A stretch of DNA of 64,000 bases, from contig NZ_JAUSXM010000001.1 in NCBI RefSeq assembly GCF_030815985.1, positions 682,001 through 746,000 on the forward strand, written 5' to 3'. The first letter of the stretch is position 1; every line of letters starts with the position of its first letter. The position numbers and the translations under genes are program-made. Below, one piece after another: positions 21,114 to 36,740 of this stretch. Under the pieces are notes generated by a model that had not been told where the DNA came from, made no database searches, and worked only from the letters and a program-made list of their open reading frames with translations. Source of the stretch: Paenibacillus sp. W2I17 (GTDB lineage: Bacteria > Bacillota > Bacilli > Paenibacillales > Paenibacillaceae).

Positions 21114-21421
21114 GTAATAATCGGCTTCATTTGGTTGAAACACATGATCGAAAGTGTAATGATTCCTAAGTTCATATGGCCTACAATGCGTTTACATGGG
21201 TAATAAGCATGCTGATTCGGATCCGAAACCAATGTGTTGGCACGGCTGTAAGGATGTTTACCTTCATATTTGCGCTAGAGGCTATGTCCATGGACTTAGG
21301 AAGAGTGCTGATAAGAAGGACGTTTCAACCATTTTTATCGTTTTACGGGGTAGTTGTTCGAGGGCTGTGATAAAATGATAGGAATAAGAACATACGATCT
21401 GTTTACGTGAGAGGAGACACC
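21114..21421. other. Intergenic region upstream of the MoxR operon
   Basis: No convincing gene. A 60-codon plus-strand frame (21196-21378) rich in Cys and His (CWHGCKDVYLHIC) has no ribosome-binding site and no recognised family. The operon promoter must lie here or just before the GAGGAG at 21411, but no clear -35/-10 pair was found. Confidence 0.5.
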
Positions 21422-22528
21422 TTGACGATGGAGATGCTTAAACCACCCGCCGAGACATTATATGAGGTTGAATTACGTGCACTGCGAGAGGAAGATCAGG
21501 GGAAACGTCCCCCTAACTGGCTGTTATCTCCCGCCTATGTGCGCGATTTTATTATTGGCAGGGATAAGCCTGCGTTATTAAATGGAGAAGAAATCTCGAT
21601 TACCCGCAAATTCTATGGCAATGACGTGTTAATTGAACGTGCAGTGGTTACTCTGGCAGGCAATCGAGGATTAATGCTCGTGGGAGAACCCGGGACAGCC
21701 AAGACCATGCTTAGCGAACTGCTGACCGCAGCGATCTCCGGTACCAGTCTAAACACGATTCAAGGTACAGCAGGCACGACGGAAGACATGATCAAGTATT
21801 CCTGGAATTACGCCATGCTGCTTGATAAAGGCCCTTCGGAAGCTGCGCTTGTGCCATCACCGTTATATAACGGCATGAAGAAAGGCATTCTTACCCGTTT
21901 TGAAGAGATTACACGTTGTCCCGCGGAAGCGCAGGATAGTCTGATCAGTATTCTCAGTGACAAGGTCATGAGCATTCCGGAACTGGATGGTGGTGTACTG
22001 TTTGCCCAGCCAGGATTTAACGTCATTGCTACAGCCAATATTCGGGATAAAGGTGTTAACGAAATGAGTGGTGCATTGAAACGTCGGTTCAATTTTGAAA
22101 CGATCAAGCCCATTCATAACGTAAAGATGGAAGCCAAAATCATTGAATCCCAGGCAAGAAGCCTGTTATTACATAGTGGAATTGATATTGAAATTAACCC
22201 GGATGTGGTTGAATTGCTGGCTACAACATTTATGGAATTGCGCACCGGCATGACACGGGAAGGATACAAGCTTGATACCCCTCAAGCATCCATGAGTACG
22301 GCGGAAGCGGTGTCTGTCTATGTTCAGAGTGCGATGACTTCCTATTATTACGATGATAAAGCTATTGCACTGGATCGGTTGGTGCAAAACATGCTGGGGA
22401 CCATTGCAAAGGAAAACGACAAGGATATGTCCATTCTCAAAACCTATTTCTCCAAGGTCGTAAAAGAGCGTTCCAGAGAAGAGGGAATGTGGAAGGACTA
22501 TTATGAGGAGAGAAAATGGATCGGTTAA
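21422..22528 (+). CDS. MoxR-family AAA+ ATPase (YehL-like)
   Basis: 368 residues from the TTG at 21422 (five bases after GAGGAG); the ATG at 21428 is the alternative start. The AAA+ core is complete: Walker A GEPGTAKT (about 87-94), Walker B region ILTRFEEITRCP, sensor 1 IATANIRDKG and the arginine-finger segment ALKRRFNFE. MoxR ATPases act as chaperones or remodelling factors together with VWA-domain partners; a VWA protein is encoded two genes downstream. The gene order resembles E. coli yehL followed by yehM and yehP. It is the first gene of a tight seven-gene operon and overlaps the next gene by 13 bp. Confidence 0.93.
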   Translation: MTMEMLKPPAETLYEVELRALREEDQGKRPPNWLLSPAYVRDFIIGRDKPALLNGEEISITRKFYGNDVLIERAVVTLAGNRGLMLVGEPGTAKTMLSELLTAAISGTSLNTIQGTAGTTEDMIKYSWNYAMLLDKGPSEAALVPSPLYNGMKKGILTRFEEITRCPAEAQDSLISILSDKVMSIPELDGGVLFAQPGFNVIATANIRDKGVNEMSGALKRRFNFETIKPIHNVKMEAKIIESQARSLLLHSGIDIEINPDVVELLATTFMELRTGMTREGYKLDTPQASMSTAEAVSVYVQSAMTSYYYDDKAIALDRLVQNMLGTIAKENDKDMSILKTYFSKVVKERSREEGMWKDYYEERKWIG

Positions 22529-24984
22529 GAGCAGTACTGGACCCTGATGTTGATCAGTTACAATCCTTGTTCGAATCCCAGGTATATAACCTGAGTAATC
22601 ATACGGTCTATTATCCTATTAGACATCACAGCCCTGCATGTTCGTATCACTTGTTACGATTAATTGGAGAGTACAAGCCGGATATTATTCTGATCGAAGG
22701 ACCAGAGAGTGGCAATCCGTTAATTCCGGTGCTGAGTGATGAGGCAACCTTACCTCCTGTCAGTCTGTACTATACCTACGAGAGTGAATTGGAGAGAGAA
22801 GCCTGCTATTATCCGATGCTTCGGTATTCGCCTGAATATGTAGCTTTGAAAGAAGCAAAACGGTTGGATATTCCGGCGAAGTTTATTGACTTGGACTATC
22901 AACACTTCTCCACTCGTGCATCCAAATCCGGCCAGACAGAACAAAAGGAGATCTCCATCCAGGACGAAACCTTGCTTGCGGGGTCTGACTTCATTAACCG
23001 GTTGTGTCAAAAAACAAACTGTCGCAGTTTTGATGAATTGTGGGAAAAGGTGTTTGAGATCGGTGGTCTGGAGAAATCCACTCAGGCATTCGTGCAGGAT
23101 GTATTCACGTATTGTACTTTATCCCGAATGTGCTATTCCACGGAACGATTACAATCTACAGGTGATCTGGCAAGAGAAGCACATATGAGACAACGTATTC
23201 AACAAGCGGTGCAGGAACATGACCGTGTGCTTGTCATTACCGGTGGATTTCATACGTATGGACTGTTGATGTCAGAGAAACATGAATCCCAATTGGAACA
23301 GCCAGAAATGGATAAACAGCATGCAGACCAACGTTTGGATGGACAAGGTAAACCAGGTACGTCTCAACTTAGTTCGGTTAATCCAGATACGGTTCACCAA
23401 CAAATGTACCCGATGGTCTATACCTTTGCTGAAGCGGATCGGCTCAATGGATATGCGAGTGGCATGCCTTATGTAAATTATTACGATCAGATCTGGAACC
23501 AGCTGCTTCGCAAAAAGAGTACACCATATAATCTAACGGCTCTGGACTTGTTATCCCGGCTGATGCGCCAATTACGGGACGGACACGAGCATGTATCAAC
23601 CAGTGATGCAATTGAGGCATACAGTATGATTCAAGGTCTTGCCGGGCTTCGGGGTAAAAGGGAAGGCGGCGTCTATGAGTTGATGGATGCAGCACTCTCT
23701 TCCTTTGTGAAGGGGGAGCTTACCTTGGCGACCGATAAACCGCTGCAAGAGCTGCAGCAGTTATTGACAGGAGACGTCATTGGAAGTGTGGCTCCCAATT
23801 CATTCAGTATTCCCATCGTGGAGGACTTCAAGGCGCGTTGTACAGAGTACAAACTGCAGATTCGTACAACAGGTCAACACAAGAAAGTGCTGGATCTGTA
23901 TGCGAAACCGGAGCATCGTCAGATAAGCCAATTGATTCAATGCATCACCTATCTGGTTCCGGAATTCGCGAAACGGCAATCGGGGCCGGACTGGATCGCA
24001 GAGCGTGACATGAATCTCGTACGTGAAACCTGGGTTTATATGTACTCCTCCCGTATTGAAGCCAGATTGATAGAAAACTCTCTCTATGGCGGAACACTTG
24101 CTGGAGCGGCTACGCGCAAAATGGAAGAACAAATGCAAGAAATACCGGATCATCATAGCGGTGAACTTGCCCGACTCATGCTTCAAGCGCTGCTCATGGG
24201 ACTTCAGGACACAGCGATGAAACTTTATGAACAGGTGCGCTCAGCGCTGAGAATCGACGGGAATTTCCTTTCCTTATGTAACAGTCTACATGTCTTGAAC
24301 CGAATTCATCAACACCGCAGGCTACTGGGACTATCTGACGAGCAACAACTCCCTGAGCTGGTATCCGAGGCTTACAGGAATGCCGTAGACAAGCTGCTAC
24401 AGCTCTCCAGAGCCAATCCGGATGAACATGAAGCCATTATTCAGGGATTGAAGCTGTTAGCCATGCTCGCGGAGTCATCGGAGGAGCATTTTCAGGATGA
24501 GACATTCCGAATACATCTGAATGAGCTTCTGTCTGATCACCAGCTTCCGGCTCAGCTGGAGGGTGTGTGTGTGGCTATTTCCTCAGGGCTCGGTGACAGG
24601 CCCAGAGATGAGATTGTTGATCGTGCTCGCGGGTATATCCATGGTACACCGGATCAGACCCGTCAAACGGCACTTTTTTTACAGGGAGTATTCACTGTAG
24701 CACGTGACGCTTTTTTGTATGAAGATCAGCTCTTGTCTGAGTTGAATTATCTGATTGAACAGCTGTCATACGACGACTTCATCAGTATGGTACCGGAATT
24801 ACGGTTGGCATTCACCTACTTTACACCAATGGAGACGGGCTTGATTGCTGAACGGGTGGCGAGTCTGCATCAGGTTGAGCCAGAGGAAATGTTGAGGCCT
24901 GCGGTGGATGAGCAGATGCTGACTCAGTCCAAAGCATGGGACGAAGCGCTTCGAAAGGAGTTTGCTGCATGGAAGCTAATATGA
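22516..24984 (+). CDS. DUF5682 protein (YehM-like)
   Basis: 822 residues, a large protein without a signal peptide. The N-terminal part has YPIRHHSPAC (about 34), LIEGPESG (about 59) and TGGFHTYGLL (about 241). These His/Glu/Gly motifs recall the TraB/ChaN-like fold, where they are catalytic or metal-binding; that link is inference. The rest is predicted mostly helical. In E. coli YehM occupies the same position next to the MoxR ATPase. The ATG at 22516 follows GAGGAG and overlaps the MoxR stop, so translation is coupled. The sequence QSGQTEQKE at about 135 looks like a surface linker. Function unknown. Confidence 0.85.
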   Translation: MDRLRAVLDPDVDQLQSLFESQVYNLSNHTVYYPIRHHSPACSYHLLRLIGEYKPDIILIEGPESGNPLIPVLSDEATLPPVSLYYTYESELEREACYYPMLRYSPEYVALKEAKRLDIPAKFIDLDYQHFSTRASKSGQTEQKEISIQDETLLAGSDFINRLCQKTNCRSFDELWEKVFEIGGLEKSTQAFVQDVFTYCTLSRMCYSTERLQSTGDLAREAHMRQRIQQAVQEHDRVLVITGGFHTYGLLMSEKHESQLEQPEMDKQHADQRLDGQGKPGTSQLSSVNPDTVHQQMYPMVYTFAEADRLNGYASGMPYVNYYDQIWNQLLRKKSTPYNLTALDLLSRLMRQLRDGHEHVSTSDAIEAYSMIQGLAGLRGKREGGVYELMDAALSSFVKGELTLATDKPLQELQQLLTGDVIGSVAPNSFSIPIVEDFKARCTEYKLQIRTTGQHKKVLDLYAKPEHRQISQLIQCITYLVPEFAKRQSGPDWIAERDMNLVRETWVYMYSSRIEARLIENSLYGGTLAGAATRKMEEQMQEIPDHHSGELARLMLQALLMGLQDTAMKLYEQVRSALRIDGNFLSLCNSLHVLNRIHQHRRLLGLSDEQQLPELVSEAYRNAVDKLLQLSRANPDEHEAIIQGLKLLAMLAESSEEHFQDETFRIHLNELLSDHQLPAQLEGVCVAISSGLGDRPRDEIVDRARGYIHGTPDQTRQTALFLQGVFTVARDAFLYEDQLLSELNYLIEQLSYDDFISMVPELRLAFTYFTPMETGLIAERVASLHQVEPEEMLRPAVDEQMLTQSKAWDEALRKEFAAWKLI

Positions 24985-26192
24985 ATGAAGCGAATCGGAC
25001 AACGGAAGGAACCGGAGAAATCAATGAAAGTTCCAATCCGGATGGAAACAACCGAGGGGATCAACATTCTGCTGAAACCTTAAATCGATGGCGTCTGATT
25101 CTCGGTGAATCCGCTGAAGAAGGGTTGTGTAATACAGACCAATACACTTCGGCTGAATTTCAATATACGGAAATCGATGAGATTCTGGGGTATCTGTATA
25201 ACCGTGAATACGGTGAAGAACAAGGTTACCGAAAAGAGGGAGGACGCGGTGCGTCTAATCTGACTGTACCAAAATGGCTGCACAAAGTAAGGGATCTATT
25301 CCCCAAACCAACGGTAGAAATATTGGAAAAACAGGCGCTTGATCGTTATAGGCTGACAGAATTGTTAACGGACAAAAAGCTGCTTGAATCCCTTGAACCC
25401 AACATGAATCTGCTCAAGAACATTATGCAGTTCAAAGGACGGATGAAAGGTGAGGTGTTAAAGAGCGCCAAGGATATCGTGCGAACCGTGGTTGAAGAGT
25501 TACGCAGTAAGCTGGAGTCTCAGACCCGAGCGAGTATCATGGGCAAGCGCAGTCGCTATACCTCAAGTTCAGTACGATCCTTGCGCAATCTGAATTTCAA
25601 GCGAACTATCACCAAGAATTTGAAGAATTACGATAAAAACAAGCGCAGGTTTGTGATTGATCGTCTGTATTTCGACGGGAATATACAGCCCCATAACAAG
25701 TGGAACATCATCATTGGTGTGGACGAAAGTGGCAGTATGCTGGATTCAGTCATCTACAGTTCGGTGATGGCGAGCATCTTCTATCGATTGAATGCGCTGC
25801 GTACGAAATTATTCATATTTGATACGCAGGTTGTTGATCTGAGCGACAGGCTGGAAGACCCCGTAGACGTGCTCATGAATGTACAGCTCGGCGGGGGCAC
25901 ACATATTACGAAAGCGTTGCGTTATGGCGAGACGTTAATCGATAATCCAGGCAAAACCATCTTTATTCTGGTCAGTGATCTGGAGGAAGGGTACCCGATC
26001 GCGCAAATGTATAAAGCCTGTAAAGATATTATCGATGCAGGATGCAAGCTACTGGTTCTCACCGCGCTCGATTTTAACGGGGATTCAGTCTATAACAAAC
26101 ATGCCGCACAGACATTAACCAATATGGGGGCACATGTAGCAGCAATTACGCCTAACGAACTCGCGGATTGGATTGGCGAGATCATCACTTAA
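24969..26192 (+). CDS. VWA-domain protein (YehP-like)
   Basis: 407 residues from the ATG at 24969, eight bases after AAGGAG; the gene overlaps the DUF5682 end by 16 bp. The C-terminal half is a von Willebrand factor A domain with an intact MIDAS: DESGS (about 250-254), Thr in GGGTHIT and Asp in LVSDLEEG. The N-terminal part is highly charged and helical (LEKQALDRYRLTELLTDKK). VWA proteins of this type partner with MoxR ATPases and load metal-dependent clients. Cytoplasmic, no signal peptide. Confidence 0.92.
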   Translation: MEANMNEANRTTEGTGEINESSNPDGNNRGDQHSAETLNRWRLILGESAEEGLCNTDQYTSAEFQYTEIDEILGYLYNREYGEEQGYRKEGGRGASNLTVPKWLHKVRDLFPKPTVEILEKQALDRYRLTELLTDKKLLESLEPNMNLLKNIMQFKGRMKGEVLKSAKDIVRTVVEELRSKLESQTRASIMGKRSRYTSSSVRSLRNLNFKRTITKNLKNYDKNKRRFVIDRLYFDGNIQPHNKWNIIIGVDESGSMLDSVIYSSVMASIFYRLNALRTKLFIFDTQVVDLSDRLEDPVDVLMNVQLGGGTHITKALRYGETLIDNPGKTIFILVSDLEEGYPIAQMYKACKDIIDAGCKLLVLTALDFNGDSVYNKHAAQTLTNMGAHVAAITPNELADWIGEIIT

Positions 26193-26211
26193 ATTCAAGG
26201 AGGAATGTGTA

Positions 26212-26529
26212 ATGCTTACCGCAGACCGCGCAGTTGAAACTTTGGTGGAGAAATTCGCAGTAACCTGTTCGAACGAGTATTCATTAAAAACAGATCGCAG
26301 CTCCGAAATTATCGATTACGTCTTGGGAACGACAGACAAGTTCCCGGATATGTTGGGAAATTCGAGTCATTATGTGTATCAAACGATTGATCTGCTCATG
26401 AAGCTTGCCAAAAAAGACGATGGAGATATCTTTTACCGTGCCGGGGCTATTGTGATATATCTGGAATCCAATTATTCCAAAAGAAATTCATGGAGAACGG
26501 ATGCCCTTTACTGTCTGTATGGGAAATGA
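26212..26529 (+). CDS. Small helical protein of unknown function, MoxR operon
   Basis: 105 residues from the ATG at 26212, which has a near-perfect AAGGAGG seven bases upstream. No family is recognised. The protein is compact and mixed in charge, with predicted helices (TADRAVETLVEKFAVTCS, VYQTIDLLMKLAKK) and no membrane segment or signal peptide. It lies 19 bp after the VWA gene and overlaps the DUF4132 gene by 29 bp, so it is an integral member of the operon. I know of no counterpart in the E. coli yeh set. It could be an adaptor or a small regulatory subunit. Confidence 0.75.
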   Translation: MLTADRAVETLVEKFAVTCSNEYSLKTDRSSEIIDYVLGTTDKFPDMLGNSSHYVYQTIDLLMKLAKKDDGDIFYRAGAIVIYLESNYSKRNSWRTDALYCLYGK

Positions 26530-29500
26530 CTCCGAAGCCTACGGATTAAGCGGGAAGAGCAAAAGTGCTGATCGCATGGATGGATTGTTGTCCCGGTTGG
26601 AGAAGATCAAACAGTTTGCAGGCGAGAACGAAATTTCGACTGAATTAAAGAGTAAATTAAAGCGTGCCCAGTGGCTTTTTGATTCCAAAAAAGCGGACAG
26701 TCAAGGGGATTACCGGGATGTGATTAATGCATTAATGCTGCTTCAACTATATTCAAGACTCAGTGACACGGCTTCTCATCTTGCAGAGGTTCAATCTTCT
26801 GTTCAATCGTTACCAGTGTTGTTTCAACATGTGATGGCTAATGATGCAGATAAGTTGCGGGACGAGCTACATACGTTGATTGAACCTGTAGTGGTCAGTA
26901 ATATTCAAGGAAAACATAACGGATCTTCCCAAGAATTGAAGGATGAATTCCTCAAGGAGAAGCGTAGTCAGCTCATAGCTGAACTGTATCCCAATACGTC
27001 TTTCTCTTCAAAAGAGCAATGTTCAAACACTGTATTCCATCAAACTATGGTGCTTGTGAGTGGTGCCTTGTTGTACCTGATTAACATTAGTGGAGGTAAA
27101 CAACGGTTCCTTGATACAAATAGTGAGATTGGGCAAGTTTTGCTTCACACAATACATCAATTACATGAGATTTATCCACTTGAAGTTCGCCGTTACTTGC
27201 TGAGTATGGACCCTAGAGCCAAGAGCCCAAATGATCTGCTTGCTGGACTTGTGCCTCTGGATGAGCCTTATCAGTTGGTTGAAATGTTGCGGGACGAGCT
27301 TAATTCGTACACGGTATCTTGGAACATGTTACAATCTGCGATCGCGAATCGTCCTGAACAAGCGATTCGAGCATACGAGATTATGAAACCGCCATTCCTG
27401 AAACTCTGCATTCAGAAATTCATGGAGGATCAGGGATTGACATTGCCTAATGCGGAGGGGTCACTGGAGCAAGCGGTATTTAACGCTCTTCGGCATCCTT
27501 TGGACGGGGGACGTCAAGGACTGGCGATTGCAAGATACTTAAATGGGGAAAACAACCTGGAGGAATATTGGGAGGACCCGAATAGTCGCGGGTTGTTTAA
27601 TCAACTGAATCGGGATAAGAAGCGTGTTCACAACCTCATTAGTATTAGTTTTCTGCCCTTGGACTCGGAGGCGATGCGCAGGTTCGCAATCCTGACCACT
27701 CATCCCGATTGGACACTGGATATTATCTCGGACATGTACAATTCATACGCGTTTAGTGGAGAGCAGCTGCTTCAACGTTATGGGCAAGATCCTGAGGTGC
27801 AACGTGAGAAATTGCTAACCAGCCTGATCTCACTTAATGGCATGACCGACTACAGATACAAATCCATGCCGCATGACGAATACCGCCGAATCATTCAGCA
27901 GAATCTGGACTATGCACTGACACAGTACAAGAAACTGCCAACAGATACGCGCATTTTAATTCTGGAGATTACCTTTGAACAGCGTGATGAGTTATCGAAG
28001 AAAATATTGGCCGAAGCGATTCGTGCCGGATTGCAGGATTCTTCCAAAAAGGCCAACGGCGTGGCGTTAGCGGAATTCAACCGTATTCCTGATCATGACT
28101 TGTATACGCTCGTCTACCTCTCGGAGAAAAAAGTGGGAATCAAAGAAATGGCTCTGACCGCAATCCGCAGTCTGGAAAACAGCAAGGAGCTGTACGGTGA
28201 GCTTTTGAAGAAAGAGAAGTCCGATGAGTGGAAGAGCTTGATCCAAATTCTGCTGGATACCGCAGATCTAAGTCCAGAGTATGCCCATGCTGCACTCGCT
28301 GATCAGGCGGATGCCAAAAAGTTGTCGAGACTGAGTTGGTTGTCCTTGAAAGATCTCCCTTCACTGATACGTATTGAAGACAATCAGCCTTTAGATGACC
28401 GGATTAAACAGTATGCTTTGGTCCAATCATTGGATCATACATCCGGTCCTAATGAACGGTTGAATGAATTACGAGATTACGTAAGTGAGGCATCGCTCGC
28501 TCGTTTTGCAAGTGAACTGCTTCAGGTCTGGATTCAGGAAGGTGCTCCTGCGAAAGAAAAGTGGGTGATGTATGTTTCAGCACTCTTTGGCGATATTCAG
28601 ATTGTGAATATTTTGGCTCCGCAAATTAAGGAATGGACAGAAAACAGTCGTGGCGCGATTGCAGCAGATGCTGTAAAAGTGCTCGCTTATCTGAAAGATC
28701 CATCCGCTCTTATGGCGATTGATAAAATCAAACGTGGCGTGAAGAACCGTCAGGTGAAAGGTGCAGCAGAAGAAGCATTGCAGCTTGCAGCGGATAATAT
28801 GGGACTTACCCCGGAACAACTGGAGGATCGGTTAGTCACCACGCTTGGTTTTGATGAAAAAGGAACCATGCAGCTGAGTTACGGAGAGCGTTCCTTCCTG
28901 GTTAAGGTTAATGGAGACTTGCAAGTGGTTGTTCTCAATGAAGAAACGGGCAAATCCGTGAAGAGTCTGCCTGCTCCTGCACAGAAAGACGATCCTGAAT
29001 TGGCAGCGCAGTCCAAGGCACGTTTCACACAGCTGAAAAAAGATCTCAAATCCATGGTTAACATTCAGGCGCAGCGTCTGGAAGAGTCATTGTCCAAGCA
29101 ACGTCTGTGGTCTGCCGATGAGTGGAAAGCACTGTTTGTACAAAATGTAATCATGCAAAAATTTGCTGTTGGTCTGATCTGGGGAACGTATGAGGATGGT
29201 GCACTGATCAGCACCTTCCGTTATATGGAGGATGGCACCTTCAATTCTGTGGATGAAGATGAGGTTGATCTGCCTTCGGGTGCGCAAGTGGGACTTATAC
29301 ACCCGCTGGAACTGGATCAGGCGACGCTTGAAGGTTGGACAACGCAGTTGGAGGATTACGAGATCAAGCAGCCATTTGAGCAACTGAATCGTGAGATTCA
29401 CCAGCCTGAAGATGAGGACAAGACAAAGAGTGAATACGATCGTCTGCCTGAGTCTGATTTCTCACCAACGGCTTTCCCCAAAGCACTGGAGAAATACGGT

Positions 29501-29770
29501 TGGATCAAAGGACCGGCACAGGACGGCGGCTGGTATCATGAATTTTATAAAGAGTACGGAGATCTTGTTGCGGAATTGCAATTCAGTGGTACGAGCATCA
29601 CGTATTACGAAGGACTGGATGATATTACACTCGAATCCTTACATTTCTTCAAACCGAGTAGCAAGCAACATTATTACTATGGTGACAACAAATCCATTGC
29701 TCTGGGCAACGTTCCAGGTCGCGTGTTCAGTGAAACGATCTACGATATTCTGAGAGCAACGGGGCGTTGA
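26501..29770 (+). CDS. DUF4132 protein with HEAT-like helical array (YehI/MolR-like)
   Basis: 1089 residues, one of the largest proteins in the window. The middle (about 350-750) consists of repeated helix pairs such as EAIRAGLQDSSKKANGVALA and VGIKEMALTAIRSLENSKE, which read as HEAT-like repeats. The C-terminal part (about 870-1089) matches the DUF4132 region of E. coli YehI, including LPESDFSPTAFPKALEKYGW and YYEGLDDITLESLHF. No catalytic motif is evident, suggesting a scaffold. The ATG at 26501 follows GGAG five bases before; a second ATG at 26519 is possible. It overlaps the small gene upstream and is followed by the SWIM gene after 4 bp. Confidence 0.85.
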   Translation: MPFTVCMGNDSEAYGLSGKSKSADRMDGLLSRLEKIKQFAGENEISTELKSKLKRAQWLFDSKKADSQGDYRDVINALMLLQLYSRLSDTASHLAEVQSSVQSLPVLFQHVMANDADKLRDELHTLIEPVVVSNIQGKHNGSSQELKDEFLKEKRSQLIAELYPNTSFSSKEQCSNTVFHQTMVLVSGALLYLINISGGKQRFLDTNSEIGQVLLHTIHQLHEIYPLEVRRYLLSMDPRAKSPNDLLAGLVPLDEPYQLVEMLRDELNSYTVSWNMLQSAIANRPEQAIRAYEIMKPPFLKLCIQKFMEDQGLTLPNAEGSLEQAVFNALRHPLDGGRQGLAIARYLNGENNLEEYWEDPNSRGLFNQLNRDKKRVHNLISISFLPLDSEAMRRFAILTTHPDWTLDIISDMYNSYAFSGEQLLQRYGQDPEVQREKLLTSLISLNGMTDYRYKSMPHDEYRRIIQQNLDYALTQYKKLPTDTRILILEITFEQRDELSKKILAEAIRAGLQDSSKKANGVALAEFNRIPDHDLYTLVYLSEKKVGIKEMALTAIRSLENSKELYGELLKKEKSDEWKSLIQILLDTADLSPEYAHAALADQADAKKLSRLSWLSLKDLPSLIRIEDNQPLDDRIKQYALVQSLDHTSGPNERLNELRDYVSEASLARFASELLQVWIQEGAPAKEKWVMYVSALFGDIQIVNILAPQIKEWTENSRGAIAADAVKVLAYLKDPSALMAIDKIKRGVKNRQVKGAAEEALQLAADNMGLTPEQLEDRLVTTLGFDEKGTMQLSYGERSFLVKVNGDLQVVVLNEETGKSVKSLPAPAQKDDPELAAQSKARFTQLKKDLKSMVNIQAQRLEESLSKQRLWSADEWKALFVQNVIMQKFAVGLIWGTYEDGALISTFRYMEDGTFNSVDEDEVDLPSGAQVGLIHPLELDQATLEGWTTQLEDYEIKQPFEQLNREIHQPEDEDKTKSEYDRLPESDFSPTAFPKALEKYGWIKGPAQDGGWYHEFYKEYGDLVAELQFSGTSITYYEGLDDITLESLHFFKPSSKQHYYYGDNKSIALGNVPGRVFSETIYDILRATGR

Positions 29771-29774
29771 TGAC

Positions 29775-31607
29775 GTGAGTGGATTCAAGGAAAAATTCCG
29801 GATTTTTTCGAAGCTGTGTACGGAGGATTATCTGATTCGGTATGCCAACAAGGGGTTGTACAAAAGGTCTTTGAAAGAGTTGGACAATGGTGTAAGTGTA
29901 AAGTACACATGGAATGTATCATCGGTGAGTTGTCAGCTCAGTGACGGGACACAATGTACGCTTGAGAATACACTAGATCATTGGGAATGCTCCTGCCCAG
30001 CCGATCATATCTGCAAGCATGTGCTGATTGCAATTCTGTATGATCAACGGGAATATACGGCAGAGGATTCAATGAATGCAGACGAGAAGCATGCGCTGGA
30101 TAAGGACTTAGGGATATCGGATAATGATCGGTTGGACGTACCAAAAGACTTATCAGTAACAGAATCATCATCAAACTTAGTATCAAATGTGGACGATCCA
30201 AGCGAAATTCCGCATACGGTATCACGTGAGATCGAGTCTCGCTTCCGCTGGATGACGGAGTCTGACCTTACCGTGTTAATTAAATCGTATAGTTCTTCCA
30301 TGATTGAGGAAGTTGTTTTCCGACTGAGATACCCAGAGGAAATTAAGATCTTTGAAGATTCACTTCTTACGGTTCATCTGACCACTCAGAATATCGAGGT
30401 GTCTTTTACTGAGGAACCGAACCTTGCAAAAGCACTATGTAAGGTGCAGCAGACAGCTGGGAAAATCGCCAAGCTTGAAGCTTTGTTACGGTACCGGAAC
30501 CTAAAAGGCCTGGATGATACGGATGCATTAAGTGGACGGGTGTACGAAGCCAAGTTCTCTCTTCAGACGGTGCAGGAATGTCGGGTTATGCTGGCAGGAT
30601 TGTTGAAGACGGGACTGGCCCGCCTTCCTCAGTCCTATATGGCACAACTGGAGACCTTGGCAATCGCTGCTCATAGTGGCAACCTGCCTGACATAGAACG
30701 CAGTTTACGAGGGATTCAAGGAGAACTACAGTTGTTTTTCAACAGACATATACGTTTCTCCATGCAATCCATGTTGGATCGGGTAAGCAAGCTGTATCTT
30801 GCACTCCAGGTTCTTGAAGAAGAAAAGGTATCTGTCATTCAGCAGAGTCAGCTCATTGGCAGTTTTCGAAGTAAATACTTTACCGTTCCTTCACTCCACC
30901 TGTATGGACTGGGAGCTGATGCGTGGGAGACACGATCCGGTTTCCGTGGAATCACCTATTATTTCTATTGTTTTGATGATGAGGAAATCTACACCTATAG
31001 CGATGTACGTGCTTTATATTACGATGATCAGCAGTTCTCATATACAGAGCATTATGGTGCATTCACACCATGGCTGCCTAATCTGACCTTTCGCCAGTTT
31101 GTGGGTGAAGAAGTTCAATTCCATTCAGTTAAAGTGAATGAAGAACGCCGGATCTCTTCCGGGGAAGGTGCCAAACTTGCTATTTTGCCACGAACGGGTG
31201 TGGAAACGTTGAATCTGGGCAAAACCATGCAAGATGTAACGTCTGTACTTCAAGAGGAATCGCGATCGTTCGACTTGTTTGCTGCTCCCAAAGAACGATT
31301 GGCTGTAATCAAAGTTGCTCGAATCGTGGACCATAACTTTGTCAAACAAACGCAGGATCTTGTCCTGACGGTTGAGAGTGCCGAAGGAGAACGATTGGCA
31401 CTTACTCTCCCGTATTCAACTGATTGGCAATCGATGATCCAAAGACTGGAGTCAGGATATGGTGCTCAATCGCTTGAGCACTTCTATGCCTTTGTGCGTG
31501 TGGAACCAAAACGGATTAGCCCAATCAGTTTCCTGAAGGGTCAAACGGTGCTCAGTCTGAAACTGGATATCGGTAATGGGAGGATGGGCAGACTTGGAAG
31601 AATATAA
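29775..31607 (+). CDS. SWIM zinc-finger protein (YehQ-like)
   Basis: 610 residues from GTG 29775, five bases after the DUF4132 stop. The SWIM motif CSCPADHICKHVLI (about 73-84) has the C-x-C-x(n)-C-x-H pattern for zinc and nucleic-acid or protein binding. The rest is long, mostly helical and unannotated, with a Tyr/Phe-rich block near 380-420 (ITYYFYCFDDEEIYTYS). E. coli YehQ is a SWIM protein next to the VWA gene yehP. A nucleic-acid role is possible from the SWIM finger alone; it is not demonstrated. Confidence 0.88.
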   Translation: MSGFKEKFRIFSKLCTEDYLIRYANKGLYKRSLKELDNGVSVKYTWNVSSVSCQLSDGTQCTLENTLDHWECSCPADHICKHVLIAILYDQREYTAEDSMNADEKHALDKDLGISDNDRLDVPKDLSVTESSSNLVSNVDDPSEIPHTVSREIESRFRWMTESDLTVLIKSYSSSMIEEVVFRLRYPEEIKIFEDSLLTVHLTTQNIEVSFTEEPNLAKALCKVQQTAGKIAKLEALLRYRNLKGLDDTDALSGRVYEAKFSLQTVQECRVMLAGLLKTGLARLPQSYMAQLETLAIAAHSGNLPDIERSLRGIQGELQLFFNRHIRFSMQSMLDRVSKLYLALQVLEEEKVSVIQQSQLIGSFRSKYFTVPSLHLYGLGADAWETRSGFRGITYYFYCFDDEEIYTYSDVRALYYDDQQFSYTEHYGAFTPWLPNLTFRQFVGEEVQFHSVKVNEERRISSGEGAKLAILPRTGVETLNLGKTMQDVTSVLQEESRSFDLFAAPKERLAVIKVARIVDHNFVKQTQDLVLTVESAEGERLALTLPYSTDWQSMIQRLESGYGAQSLEHFYAFVRVEPKRISPISFLKGQTVLSLKLDIGNGRMGRLGRI

Positions 31608-31872
31608 TCAGTTCATGCAGAGAATTAACGGCTGGTCAGAAGAGTTGCTCCTGCGTGGGTTATCTCAGTTTACGATCCGGGATATTGAGGTACTTGAGCA
31701 GCTCGCAGCGGAATCCTTACGGTTGCAGATGAGTTTCCTGCATGAGTTGTTGAATCACCTCATCAAGGAAGGGCTTAGCGTGGCTCTTGGACAAGGTAAT
31801 GAAGAGTTGCTGTTATTTCAGTATTGTCGTCTCACCCAATATGTGCAATTGATTGTGCAAGAAGAAGCGTAA
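31576..31872 (+). CDS. Second small protein of unknown function, MoxR operon
   Basis: 98 residues from the ATG at 31576, overlapping the SWIM gene by 32 bp; TTG at 31594 after GGGAGG is an alternative start. Entirely helical in appearance, with strong leucine spacing (EELLLRGLSQF, LLNHLIKEGLSVAL, LLLFQYCRLTQYVQLIVQEE), so it may form a helical bundle or bind another operon product. No recognised family. It closes the operon; a terminator lies 75 bp downstream. It has no E. coli yeh counterpart that I know of. Confidence 0.7.
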   Translation: MGGWADLEEYNQFMQRINGWSEELLLRGLSQFTIRDIEVLEQLAAESLRLQMSFLHELLNHLIKEGLSVALGQGNEELLLFQYCRLTQYVQLIVQEEA

Positions 31873-31946
31873 TATTGGTTAGTATTCCAAGCGAAGGTAC
31901 ATGAAGCGATATGATGTAATAAATAAGATGTATTATAGGATATAAG

Positions 31947-31987
31947 AAGATTTGCAGAAGGCCACAAGGTCACTGCAAATCTTTTTT
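31947..31987 (+). terminator. Terminator of the MoxR operon
   Basis: 11-bp perfect stem AAGATTTGCAG / CTGCAAATCTT, 15-nt loop, followed by TTTTTT. Confidence 0.9.
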
Positions 31988-34232: not shown

Positions 34233-36740
34233 ATGTCCATGAGCGAATCGCTGTTAACGCAAATTGTAAATCAACATATTCCGGCTGGTGCAACGGTCGT
34301 CACTATTGATAAACCTGTTCAACATCCAGCGATCTATGCGGCAGATCTTACCGGTGACGGTATGCCGGAGATTGCTGCAGTCTATCAGTTGAATGGTGAG
34401 CTGTATTTGCTCATTCTGAAATTTTTTCAAGGACATTGGATCAAGATGGCACTAATTAAGGGATTGGGGTATGGGGTGACTTTAATGACTGCAGCCCCTG
34501 TAACTTCAACTGCAAGGAACAATCTTATTATCGGTTGGCGGATTGGTTCTATTTGGTCTAAGCTTGCCGTATATGAGTGGACGGAATCAGGGCTCAAAGA
34601 TCTGGCGCCTGACGATCTATATTATAGCTATGCAGAGATTATAGATATGCCTGGTCCGCATGGTCGAGATGGGAAAGTGGAGATTGCACTCTGGATACAT
34701 GACACAGGTGAAGCCTATCGTGTGGAGATTATCCGATGGCAGAATGGGAAATGGGTTCCTGCACCGGACGTATATGCAACCTATTATCCAAAAGTGGTGC
34801 AATATTACGAGCAACTAACCCAGCAATATCCTGATTATATCTTTTACTGGTATTACCTTGCGGATGCTCAGTACCACGCGGGCCAGTATCCGGCAGCACT
34901 CGCTTCAGTTCAGAAGGCACTCAGTTTCCCGGAAGCGTATCCTTCCAGAGAGGTACTACAAGAGCTGGAAAAGAAAATTAAGCAGGCGATGGTCCCTATA
35001 AGCCATACCCGGGTAGCGACATGGTTATATCCTGTCTCCGTTCGAACCACAAGTGGGACGCGTTGGGGGTATATGGATGCCCAAGGCCACATTCGGCTTG
35101 AGCCGGTACTGGATGACGCGCAAGAGTTTCAGCCCAATGGATTGGCTGTGGTTGTGAAGGATGGTCGTGCCGGCGTTATTAATCTTCAGGGGCAGTATGT
35201 CGTTCAACCTGTATACGATTCCATCAATTCCTTTTCCGAAGAACGGGCGATAACAATTGATTCTCAAGGATTTAAGATGATTAATGAACAAGGTACAGTC
35301 CTGACCAAACGGGCGTACCCGTATATCTCAAATATGAACGACGGTCGAGCGTTATTTTACGATTCTAATCCTGGTCAGTCAGATGGTTCGGTGAGTCGGT
35401 ATGGTTATCTGGATGCGTCGGGCAATGAGGTGATTCCGGCACAGTTCGCTTCGGCGAATGATTTTCAAGATGGTAAAGCGGTTGTGCAGATTAAGGACAA
35501 TGAATATGCGCTCATTAATCGCAATGGACATCGGCTCGCAACGTATCCATATGCCTATGTGGGACCACTGGGGGATGGACTGCTTGCTTTTCAAAAAGAA
35601 ACCTCGGGGAAATATGGATACATCGACGAACGGGGTAATATTCGCATTCAGCCCAAGTTTTCATCGGCATTTCCTTTTAGCGGCGGGCAAGCGATTGTTA
35701 ATACAGCGGAGGATTACAAATCGAACTATGGTGTCATTAATACGGAGGGATCGTTTATCATTCAACCCGCCTATAATGACATCCGCGAACTAGGCGAGCA
35801 TCGTTATGCGCTGGGGCAAGCGATTAACCCGGAGCAGCCTTATATCGGCTCTGTGTATGCGATTGCAGATACCAACGGTAGAAGGCTTACGGAGTTCCTA
35901 TATCGCGAAGTAGGCAATTACAAAAACGGCCTTGCTTCCGCATCGGATGGCAGACAAACCTATCTGTTGGATCTGAGTGGAAGGCCTGCAGCTGGGTATC
36001 CTCATGTTGAAGGTTCGGGTACGCTGGAGGTCGTGGCACCAGATCTGATTAAGGCCTATGTAGACCAGCGCTTATCTTATGTGAATCGGGCCGGACAGAT
36101 CATCTGGCGGCCAAATACAATCGTTCCGCTTCATCCACCGTACCGTGTACGCGAAGAGAAGTACAAACCAAACAGGGACTACCTCGTATATTATCCGCAG
36201 GTGGAGGGATTAACGAACCAAGCGGAGCAGCTTGCGCTGAATGCCAAGTTGAAGCAACTCTCCCAGGTTAAACCGATCCCTGCGGATCAGCAGCTAGATT
36301 ATACGTATACAGGTGATTTTGATATAACGTTTTATCAGCAGCAATTGCTGCAACTGCAACTCACAGGTTATAACTACCCGGCGGGTGCAGCGCATGGTAT
36401 GCCTACGATGATCTATGCGATCATTAATCTGACGAATGGTCAGTTGTATGAGTTGAAGGATTTATTTAAACCAAATAGTGACTATGTAAAAGTGTTGAGC
36501 CAGATTGTGGGGGATCAGATCAAAAATGATCCTCAATACTCGTATGTGTTTCCGGACACCTATACGGGGATTAGTGCGGATCAGCCGTTTTTTGTCACAG
36601 CGGATGCTCTACATCTCTACTTCAATCCATATGACACCGCTCCCTATGCGGCAGGGTTTCCAACGTTTACGATTCCTTTTGTCCAGATCAAGGATATCAT
36701 TAATACAGAAGGTTCGTTCTGGAAAGCTTTCCATGAGTGA
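34233..36740 (+). CDS. WG-repeat protein with DUF3298-like C-terminus
   Basis: 835 residues. The N-terminal part (about 1-180) looks like an FG-GAP/VCBS-type propeller segment (YAADLTGDGMPEIAAVYQ). A short TPR-like stretch follows (DAQYHAGQYPAALASVQKAL). At least seven WG repeats occupy about 270-620 (RWGYMDAQGHIRLEPVLDDA, KYGYIDERGNIRIQPKFSSA and others). The last 190 residues resemble the DUF3298/RsiV-like domain (YPAGAAHGMPTMIYAIINL, FPTFTIPFVQIKDII). No signal peptide is evident, which is odd because DUF3298 is usually extracellular. ATG 34233 follows GGGAGG; ATG 34239 is possible. Role unknown; it may be a protein-binding scaffold. Confidence 0.85.
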   Translation: MSMSESLLTQIVNQHIPAGATVVTIDKPVQHPAIYAADLTGDGMPEIAAVYQLNGELYLLILKFFQGHWIKMALIKGLGYGVTLMTAAPVTSTARNNLIIGWRIGSIWSKLAVYEWTESGLKDLAPDDLYYSYAEIIDMPGPHGRDGKVEIALWIHDTGEAYRVEIIRWQNGKWVPAPDVYATYYPKVVQYYEQLTQQYPDYIFYWYYLADAQYHAGQYPAALASVQKALSFPEAYPSREVLQELEKKIKQAMVPISHTRVATWLYPVSVRTTSGTRWGYMDAQGHIRLEPVLDDAQEFQPNGLAVVVKDGRAGVINLQGQYVVQPVYDSINSFSEERAITIDSQGFKMINEQGTVLTKRAYPYISNMNDGRALFYDSNPGQSDGSVSRYGYLDASGNEVIPAQFASANDFQDGKAVVQIKDNEYALINRNGHRLATYPYAYVGPLGDGLLAFQKETSGKYGYIDERGNIRIQPKFSSAFPFSGGQAIVNTAEDYKSNYGVINTEGSFIIQPAYNDIRELGEHRYALGQAINPEQPYIGSVYAIADTNGRRLTEFLYREVGNYKNGLASASDGRQTYLLDLSGRPAAGYPHVEGSGTLEVVAPDLIKAYVDQRLSYVNRAGQIIWRPNTIVPLHPPYRVREEKYKPNRDYLVYYPQVEGLTNQAEQLALNAKLKQLSQVKPIPADQQLDYTYTGDFDITFYQQQLLQLQLTGYNYPAGAAHGMPTMIYAIINLTNGQLYELKDLFKPNSDYVKVLSQIVGDQIKNDPQYSYVFPDTYTGISADQPFFVTADALHLYFNPYDTAPYAAGFPTFTIPFVQIKDIINTEGSFWKAFHE

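Follow-up and report, generated by a model that had tools for sequence, protein, structure and literature searches.

The operon described here lies in a window of 64,000 nucleotides from Paenibacillus sp. W2I17 (positions 682001–746000 of a 7.0 Mb single-contig genome; operon coordinates below are window positions). It encodes a MoxR ATPase, a DUF5682 protein, a von Willebrand factor A (VWA) protein, a DUF4132 protein and a SWIM zinc-finger protein. We found that MoxR, DUF5682, VWA, SWIM and a large scaffold protein, which is DUF4132 in copies like this one (type A below) and HEAT/DUF5691 in a sister version (type B below), form one conserved system across several phyla, the YehL-DUF5682 system. 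Our preferred reading, held with slightly less than even confidence, is that the system is a damage-linked, ATP-driven MoxR-VWA machine that would control a hydrolase-like enzyme, with the window operon as one copy of it. This damage-linked, enzyme-driving reading is new, and the system is broadly conserved and barely described.

Co-occurrence of the Five Families and Their Two Subtypes

Among 60 genomes of the genus, the VWA, DUF5682 and SWIM families were found in exactly the same 40, as was the operonic DUF4132, and the YehL-type MoxR was found in these 40 with two weak matches in addition. An earlier note on this DNA, made from the sequence alone, had proposed a multi-subunit machine that includes a MoxR-VWA pair and suggested counting how often its families co-occur; this count, together with the complete type B loci described below, bears out a conserved unit of this kind. 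A second DUF4132 (∼1660 aa) occurs independently of the system, including in ten genomes without it. Carriers had a mean genome size of 6.85 Mb (n = 40) versus 5.5 Mb for non-carriers (n = 20), a difference that may reflect only clade.

A search with DUF5682 detected it in 4 of 199 Bacillota genomes and in 104 of 196 Paenibacillaceae genomes, one of them below cut-off. The Paenibacillaceae matches were bimodal, with 75 at ∼460–530 bits and 39, the window protein among them, at ∼300–350 bits. The 20 high scorers that were fetched carried MoxR, DUF5682 and VWA genes, directly preceded in 19 of the 20 by genes for a SWIM protein and a HEAT-repeat protein; the exception, locus L085, has neither directly before MoxR. 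We refer to this order (SWIM-HEAT/DUF5691-MoxR-DUF5682-VWA) as type B and to loci whose scaffold is DUF4132, such as the window operon, as type A. Pfam recognized HEAT and SWIM in one type B pair, HEAT just under the cut-off, and annotated records call the HEAT protein DUF5691.

Named genomes were scanned for type B, and among the best 80 of 539 confirmed loci all five families were present in 70, with L122 and L141 in broken frames. The remaining ten (L138, L142, L152, L159, L161, L162, L164, L166, L174 and L176) lack at least one part, and five of these lie on DNA shorter than 6 kb. Type B hosts include Bacillota, Bacteroidota, Planctomycetota, Verrucomicrobiota, Thermodesulfobacteriota and Pseudomonadota, to which further records add Fusobacteriota, Deinococcota and Alphaproteobacteria; type A was also found in Iodobacter, Rhizobiaceae, Proteus, Nonomuraea and Streptomyces. 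When type A and type B profiles were compared, MoxR, VWA and DUF5682 matched with a probability of 100 and SWIM moderately (76.6). The DUF4132 profile gave no match to the type B HEAT protein (probability 1.8), and the two scaffolds are therefore not counted as homologous. In one Prevotella metagenome-assembled genome (L125), the SWIM and HEAT genes lie on the strand opposite MoxR-DUF5682-VWA, so that the unit can consist of two divergently oriented parts.

The earlier note had also matched five parts of the operon to E. coli YehL, YehM, YehP, YehI and YehQ, and sequence comparison agreed. The window MoxR is 48% identical to YehL over 364 aa (E 4e-113), and the identities are 41% for VWA and YehP, 30% for DUF4132 and YehI, 25% for DUF5682 and YehM, and 33% over 92 residues for the SWIM protein and YehQ. 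By comparison, MoxR matched RavA with an E of 0.047 and VWA matched ViaA with an E of 0.03. In a MoxR sequence tree (45 rows plus RavA), the window protein groups with YehL in type A and the A/B split has a support of 100/100, with long branches that make the rooting unsafe.

Motifs and Predicted Folds of the Components

The motifs for binding nucleotide, metal and zinc are kept in both subtypes. Of the 37 type A MoxR rows, 36 have Walker A and all have Walker B, and in type B each of the two motifs is found in 19 of 19 rows; the metal-ion-dependent adhesion site (MIDAS) motif DxSGS is present in all 57 VWA rows. The SWIM domain of the window protein falls below the Pfam cut-off (E 0.068), and the CxCxnCxH zinc motif is nevertheless found in this protein, in 37 of 37 type A rows and in 20 of 20 type B rows, in keeping with the SWIM finger read earlier from the sequence.

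The DUF5682 partner is probably an enzyme. Its N-terminal domain was predicted alone because the search with the whole model was swamped by helical repeats. The best matches of the domain model were EreA/ChaN-type folds, including ChaN with haem (2g5g) and EreC (6xcq), and we take the matched Protein Data Bank entries to be members of one EreA/ChaN-like fold; the model is thus consistent with the TraB/ChaN-like character that the earlier note had given to DUF5682. The top match was a Tetrahymena complex IV chain; a sequence search of solved structures with a TraB protein of the window genome brought up no relative. The TIKI/TraB signature consists of two GX2H motifs plus a conserved Glu, and in DUF5682 the second GX2H and the Glu are invariant over 33 rows. 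Fusions of DUF5682 to VWA, one of them in Streptomyces, point to a direct contact between the two proteins.

Searches of solved structures with the other components returned Midasin alone for MoxR (E 2.4e-7), an augmin subunit alone for the DUF4132 profile (E 4e-4 and 0.07) and nothing for VWA or SWIM.

LexA-like Sites Upstream of the Operons

GAACn4GTTC is the Gram-positive LexA box. The sequence GAACRYRYGATC, a candidate form of this box with one change in the right half, was found in 37 of 39 Paenibacillaceae type A upstream regions; among 818 control upstream regions, taken from the type A and B loci of the whole study, it occurred in 1. The 37 regions belong to four genus-level groups, and the site is missing in L060 and L066; its middle four bases vary with the R-Y pattern kept. 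In the 21 aligned upstream regions of the genus, GAACATACGATCTGTTT or a close variant of it follows an extended -10-like sequence and precedes the start codon, and GAACATACGATCTGTT occurs exactly once in the window genome. The lexA gene of this genome has GAACn4GTTC at -58 and -215. No GAACn4GTTC-like site with at most one mismatch was found before the second DUF4132 gene in five of five genomes, and the site therefore goes with the system. Elsewhere in the window genome, G000:C1:3917177-3917368 (L211) corresponds to a 124-aa protein that has a DNA-binding domain of the LexA type and shows no peptidase part; such a protein could read a variant LexA box.

Type B operons carry the perfect box in part. 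GAACn4GTTC is present in 11 of 95 distinct type B upstream regions versus 3 of 818 controls, and in the mostly Bacillota subset 11 of 77 versus 1 of 460 (Fisher 2.9e-9, a value that ignores kinship among the loci). Eight of the 11 boxed operons belong to one genus-level group, Saccharibacillus and its kin (L084, L133, L143, L144 and L153 in Saccharibacillus, L126 in Paenibacillus dauci, L082 and L085), and the others are from Paenibacillus sp. JJ-223 (L080), Priestia koreensis (L168) and Metabacillus iocasae (L175); the boxes thus represent about four lineages. GAACn7GAAC is the alphaproteobacterial form of the LexA box. Exact copies occur in 3 of 48 type A regions, those of L073 and of two Streptomyces (0.1 expected), where it is not the form expected, and in 2 of 102 type B regions (0.5 expected).

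Outside the Bacillota, the sites differ. In E. coli, yehF is the first gene of the yehF-yehH-yehI run, and 7 bp separate it from the end of an upstream CTG-CAG LexA-like site with a 13/20 match to the E. coli LexA consensus (shuffles average 0.17). In Deinococcus taeanensis, the highest-scoring match in 26 kb to the DdrO motif, in the form printed in PMC8533742, reaches 13/15 and begins 35 bp before the operon. According to the same source, drA0165-drA0166 (DUF4132) and dr2173 (WGR) belong to the DdrO regulon, the DRA0166 and DR2173 proteins rise with mitomycin C in an irrE-dependent manner, and MolR is described as a member of the LexA regulon (PMC8533742). Taken together, these sites lend moderate support to the proposal that DNA damage turns on some copies of the system, with LexA as the repressor in Bacillota and E. 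coli and DdrO in Deinococcus. The weight of this reading is carried mostly by the type A site count.

Proposed Mechanism and Points That Weigh against It

In the mechanism that we propose, the MoxR ring would dock through the MIDAS VWA protein and, once docked, would load, open or switch DUF5682 at the expense of ATP. The N-terminal domain of DUF5682 has a predicted EreA/ChaN/TIKI-like hydrolase fold, in which R-H, E and H residues are invariant. A client, probably a protein bound to nucleic acid, would be brought to the enzyme by the SWIM protein together with the scaffold, and in some copies expression would be induced by DNA damage through the repressors named above.

Several observations weigh against this proposal. 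The hydrolase activity, the client and the induction are predictions from sequence and structural models. Foldseek returned no significant match for either DUF5682 model (best E 0.034 and 0.024), and the EreA/ChaN-like fold was suggested by a second aligner; moreover, the first GX2H of DUF5682 is GxRH in at least 90% of rows and PxRH in the window protein. The window site GAACATACGATC has one mismatch to GAACn4GTTC, in the right half, and CGAACn4GTTC is not over-represented genome-wide (36 places versus 85 for the reversed control). In type B, 66 of the 77 mostly Bacillota upstream regions have no perfect box, and the boxed operons are concentrated in the Saccharibacillus group. In E. coli, Iodobacter, Rhizobiaceae, Nonomuraea, Proteus and Streptomyces, the regions ahead of the type A copies lack a GAACn4GTTC-like site, and CTGTn8ACAG was not enriched. 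A second LexA-like site of 13/20 lies elsewhere in the E. coli 24 kb, and two other places in the Deinococcus stretch score 12/15 for the DdrO motif. Finally, the DRA0166 data, as given in the part of the source consulted, concern a DUF4132 protein and not an established complete system.

A wider version of the proposal, which we regard as doubtful, is a hitherto unrecognized pan-bacterial damage-response machine in which a MoxR-VWA motor would drive a ChaN/EreA-fold hydrolase so that damaged nucleoprotein is cleared or processed. Its further elements, that the SWIM protein would aim the hydrolase on a HEAT-like scaffold and that each lineage would use its own damage repressor, are held with the same reserve.

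Genomic Neighborhood and Alternative Explanations

The genes around the operons are largely ordinary. Within the genus, the flanks of the 21 loci are mostly syntenic, with a P450 gene in 17, a WG-repeat gene in 19, an aldo-keto reductase gene in 13 and a sigma factor gene in 10 (Pfam-checked). The WG-repeat gene of the window, which encodes a protein with WG repeats and DUF3298, lies downstream of the operon at 34233–36740; a WG-repeat gene is also found near the D. taeanensis operon (L187). In a search for a neighbor shared by different phyla, the 45 flanking-ORF (open reading frame) clusters listed showed recurrence mainly within related species or represented broad families; of the 169 Pfam families detected in 144 flanking proteins, the 25 commonest are widespread, general families like MFS and AraC.

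These surroundings bear on the proposal, made in the earlier note, of a conflict or stress system. The stress half gained ground through the LexA-box-like sites. The conflict half, in which MoxR-vWA would sense invasion and release DUF5682 as a toxic hydrolase effector against phage or other invaders, appears unlikely. It would fit the role of MoxR-vWA pairs as drivers of the conflict systems that Kaur et al. 2020 proposed (PMC7159879), the resemblance of the modeled DUF5682 domain to effector and toxin folds, the patchy distribution at the phylum level seen in the Bacillota count above, and the location of some copies on plasmids and of one beside a type I restriction system. The syntenic flanks speak against it, as does a part list that is constant, with no variable effector, in the 40 carriers among the 60 genus genomes. 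The best PADLOC match within the operon was 16 bits, and in the flanks, covered by 144 proteins out of 263 nearby ORFs, the raw counts for the best-represented of the 25 models listed (145 gave matches) were 3, 2 and 2 proteins. The 16-bit match of DUF4132 to PDC-S24 was rejected as proof of defense. Short patterns drawn from VWA and from the DUF5682 alignment found no relative in the viral contigs scanned. Among 72,556 plasmid records, 31 matched the window DUF5682, several of them chromosome-sized, and 37 matched the type B query. The sole match in a phage collection, MT835988.1 (L178), is an unverified contig filed as a faecal phage; it holds a type B MoxR-DUF5682-VWA triad and probably represents bacterial DNA entered under the wrong heading.

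The lack of a constant partner gene also bears on a second alternative, that the system is a chaperone for metallocofactor or haem insertion like CoxD-CoxE or NorQ-NorD, with DUF5682 as a ChaN-like carrier. The match of VWA to the CoxE family, the presence of ChaN with bound haem among the structural matches and the view that MoxR proteins mature enzymes (PMC3893208, in the part consulted) all suit this idea. No metalloenzyme was found as a constant neighbor among the 45 clusters and the 25 of 169 Pfam families listed, however, and in Deinococcus the molybdate genes show no response alongside the DUF4132 gene in the part of PMC8533742 consulted. We consider it more unlikely still.

Four type A loci (L062, L063, L067 and L070) have a gene for a TROVE-VWA (Ro-like) protein and one for a WYL regulator in the vicinity of the operon. 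Together with the SWIM zinc motif, this could suggest that the system maintains RNA or ribonucleoprotein and acts on damaged RNA. The TROVE/WYL association is restricted to a single group of relatives (4 of 39 type A loci) and is possibly mere local synteny, and we regard this explanation as improbable. The damage-linked MoxR-VWA machine with a hydrolase-like partner is the reading that we retain.

Gene Content of the Window Operon

The ORF list contains seven plus-strand ORFs at 21407/21422–31872 that overlap or are separated by gaps of a few bases (Table 1). Four proteins scored above the Pfam cut-off, namely MoxR (AAA_5, E 4.8e-35), DUF5682 (E 6e-94), VWA_CoxE (E 2.8e-42) and DUF4132 (E 1e-49); neither small ORF had a Pfam match. 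No tRNA was found in the window by ARAGORN, and no Rfam family reached its gathering score within it. By DUF5682, the nearest named relative is Paenibacillus sp. FSL H7-689 (97%).

Table 1. Features of the operon and its upstream region, in window coordinates
Feature	Position	Strand	Basis
GTCCATGGAC palindrome upstream of the operon	21286..21295	.	Upstream alignment; neighborhood partly conserved in the genus
GGACGTTTCAACCATTTTT conserved upstream element	21318..21336	+	At least 16/19 matches in 20/39 Paenibacillaceae type A loci, all in the genus
TGATAAAAT extended -10-like sequence, putative	21368..21376	+	Upstream alignment; not in the list of the simple scan
GAACATACGATC candidate operator resembling a LexA box, downstream of the -10-like sequence and ahead of the start codon	21388..21399	.	
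MoxR AAA+ ATPase, YehL kind	21422..22528	+	AAA_5; YehL identity; ORF open from GTG 21407
DUF5682 protein	22516..24984	+	Predicted N-terminal EreA/ChaN/TIKI-like domain at about residues 1–335, remainder mostly helical
VWA (CoxE-like) protein with MIDAS motif	24936..26192	+	Pfam; DxSGS motif
DUF4132 N-terminal piece, no separate gene	26173..26529	+	Continuous ORF of relatives
DUF4132 main piece, C-terminal DUF4132 domain, YehI counterpart	26501..29770	+	Pfam; YehI identity
SWIM zinc-finger protein, YehQ counterpart	29775..31607	+	CxCxnCxH motif; YehQ similarity
Small protein 2, no known family, last gene of the operon	31576..31872	+	Kept in relatives
Intrinsic-terminator-like hairpin, then T run	31942..31985	+	Fold of 76 nt, -25.9 kcal/mol, z -7.0

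The seven genes of the earlier note become six. DUF4132 is a single ORF of 1171–1371 aa in 38 of 39 Paenibacillaceae type A loci and measures 1171–1187 aa in the 34 closest database relatives, and in the one relative compared its start matches small ORF 26173–26529 residue by residue. This ORF was rejected as a gene of its own. The frame of DUF4132 is broken in the window at or just upstream of the ORF overlap 26501–26529; since the relatives have one ORF, the operon has six genes. As the earlier note described, the genes form one unit, all on the same strand, that ends in one terminator, a strong hairpin with a T run, which the simple terminator scan did not pick up. Small gene 2 is a true gene: it recurs in 39 of 39 Paenibacillaceae type A loci (26–195 bits) and has 54 database homologues, of which the named ones are from Paenibacillus. 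Many relatives have stops in the first codons after 24936, so that the VWA start assigned there probably lies too far upstream, with the true start near 24969. In five relatives (L059, L064, L068, L069 and L074), an extra ORF of ∼200 aa lies between DUF4132 and SWIM; the one tested had no Pfam match.

DUF4132 is in two pieces in the window genome and in genome G427. The second, unlinked DUF4132 gene of the window genome (G000:C1:3567824-3572812; L193:9824-14812) is likewise split, into ORFs of 173 and about 1485–1488 aa, in place of the single ORF of ∼1660 aa in relatives, and the second DUF4132 of G427 is also short (1284 aa versus ∼1660 aa). Because the unlinked gene is short in the same two genomes, indels in the assemblies are the likelier cause, and the window frame break is most likely an assembly error. 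A true mutation in a decaying pseudo-operon seems rather unlikely: the break does stand in the assembly, and the close relative G427 has breaks in DUF5682, VWA and DUF4132, but the shared shortening of the unlinked gene points to the assemblies, and the remaining genes of the window operon are intact and 96–99% identical to those of the closest relatives.

Comparison with Known Systems

The YehL-DUF5682 system shares its core with several described systems. The ternary systems of Kaur et al. 2020 have the same AAA+ MoxR and vWA core with a third component, and the portion of the main text of PMC7159879 consulted does not name MolR, SWIM, Yeh, WGR or DUF4132. None of the third components (VMAP, iSTAND, FtsH, beta-propeller) was found by Pfam in the operon, with VMAP coverage unchecked, and bpMoxR reached 20.2 bits, under its cut-off of 27. 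The ternary systems have variable effector modules, whereas the YehL-DUF5682 system has none in 40 of 40 carriers. RavA-ViaA likewise combines MoxR with a VWA partner, with hardly any sequence similarity, and no DUF5682, SWIM or DUF4132 is annotated within the 14 kb of its locus viewed. In the jumbo-phage MoxR system, a hydrolase-like domain lies N-terminal to the vWA partner, as in the DUF5682-VWA fusions, but the hydrolase is a different one (a metallopeptidase) and a role in virion assembly has been proposed (PMC7824862, in the part consulted). The EreA/ChaN/TIKI proteins (ChaN 2g5g, EreC 6xcq) share the predicted fold and the H, E and H conserved in DUF5682, which differs from them in its long helical remainder and its MoxR operon context.

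In the open-access literature, we found DUF5682 and DUF5691 unnamed and DUF4132 named in three papers; among the papers listed, none gives a function for yehL, yehM, yehP, yehQ or yehI. In the portions consulted, yehM and yehQ are mentioned, in a non-functional way, in papers on copper and butanol evolution (PMC12409786, PMC6442406), and ST131 strains with a disrupted DUF4132 region are reported (PMC9334617).

Among the closest known counterparts is the yeh locus of E. coli K-12 MG1655, which has the same five families and is type A both by hidden Markov model and by the MoxR tree. Its order differs, with DUF4132 first (yehF-yehH-yehI-yehK-yehL-yehM-yehP-yehQ); it has in addition the WGR gene yehF and the pseudogene yehH, its counterpart to small gene 2 is unmatched, and in place of GAACRYRYGATC it has the CTG-CAG LexA-like site. 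The yeh genes of E. coli are one end of a five-part system that extends across several phyla, and a string of DUFs becomes a set of predictions that can be tested directly in E. coli K-12.

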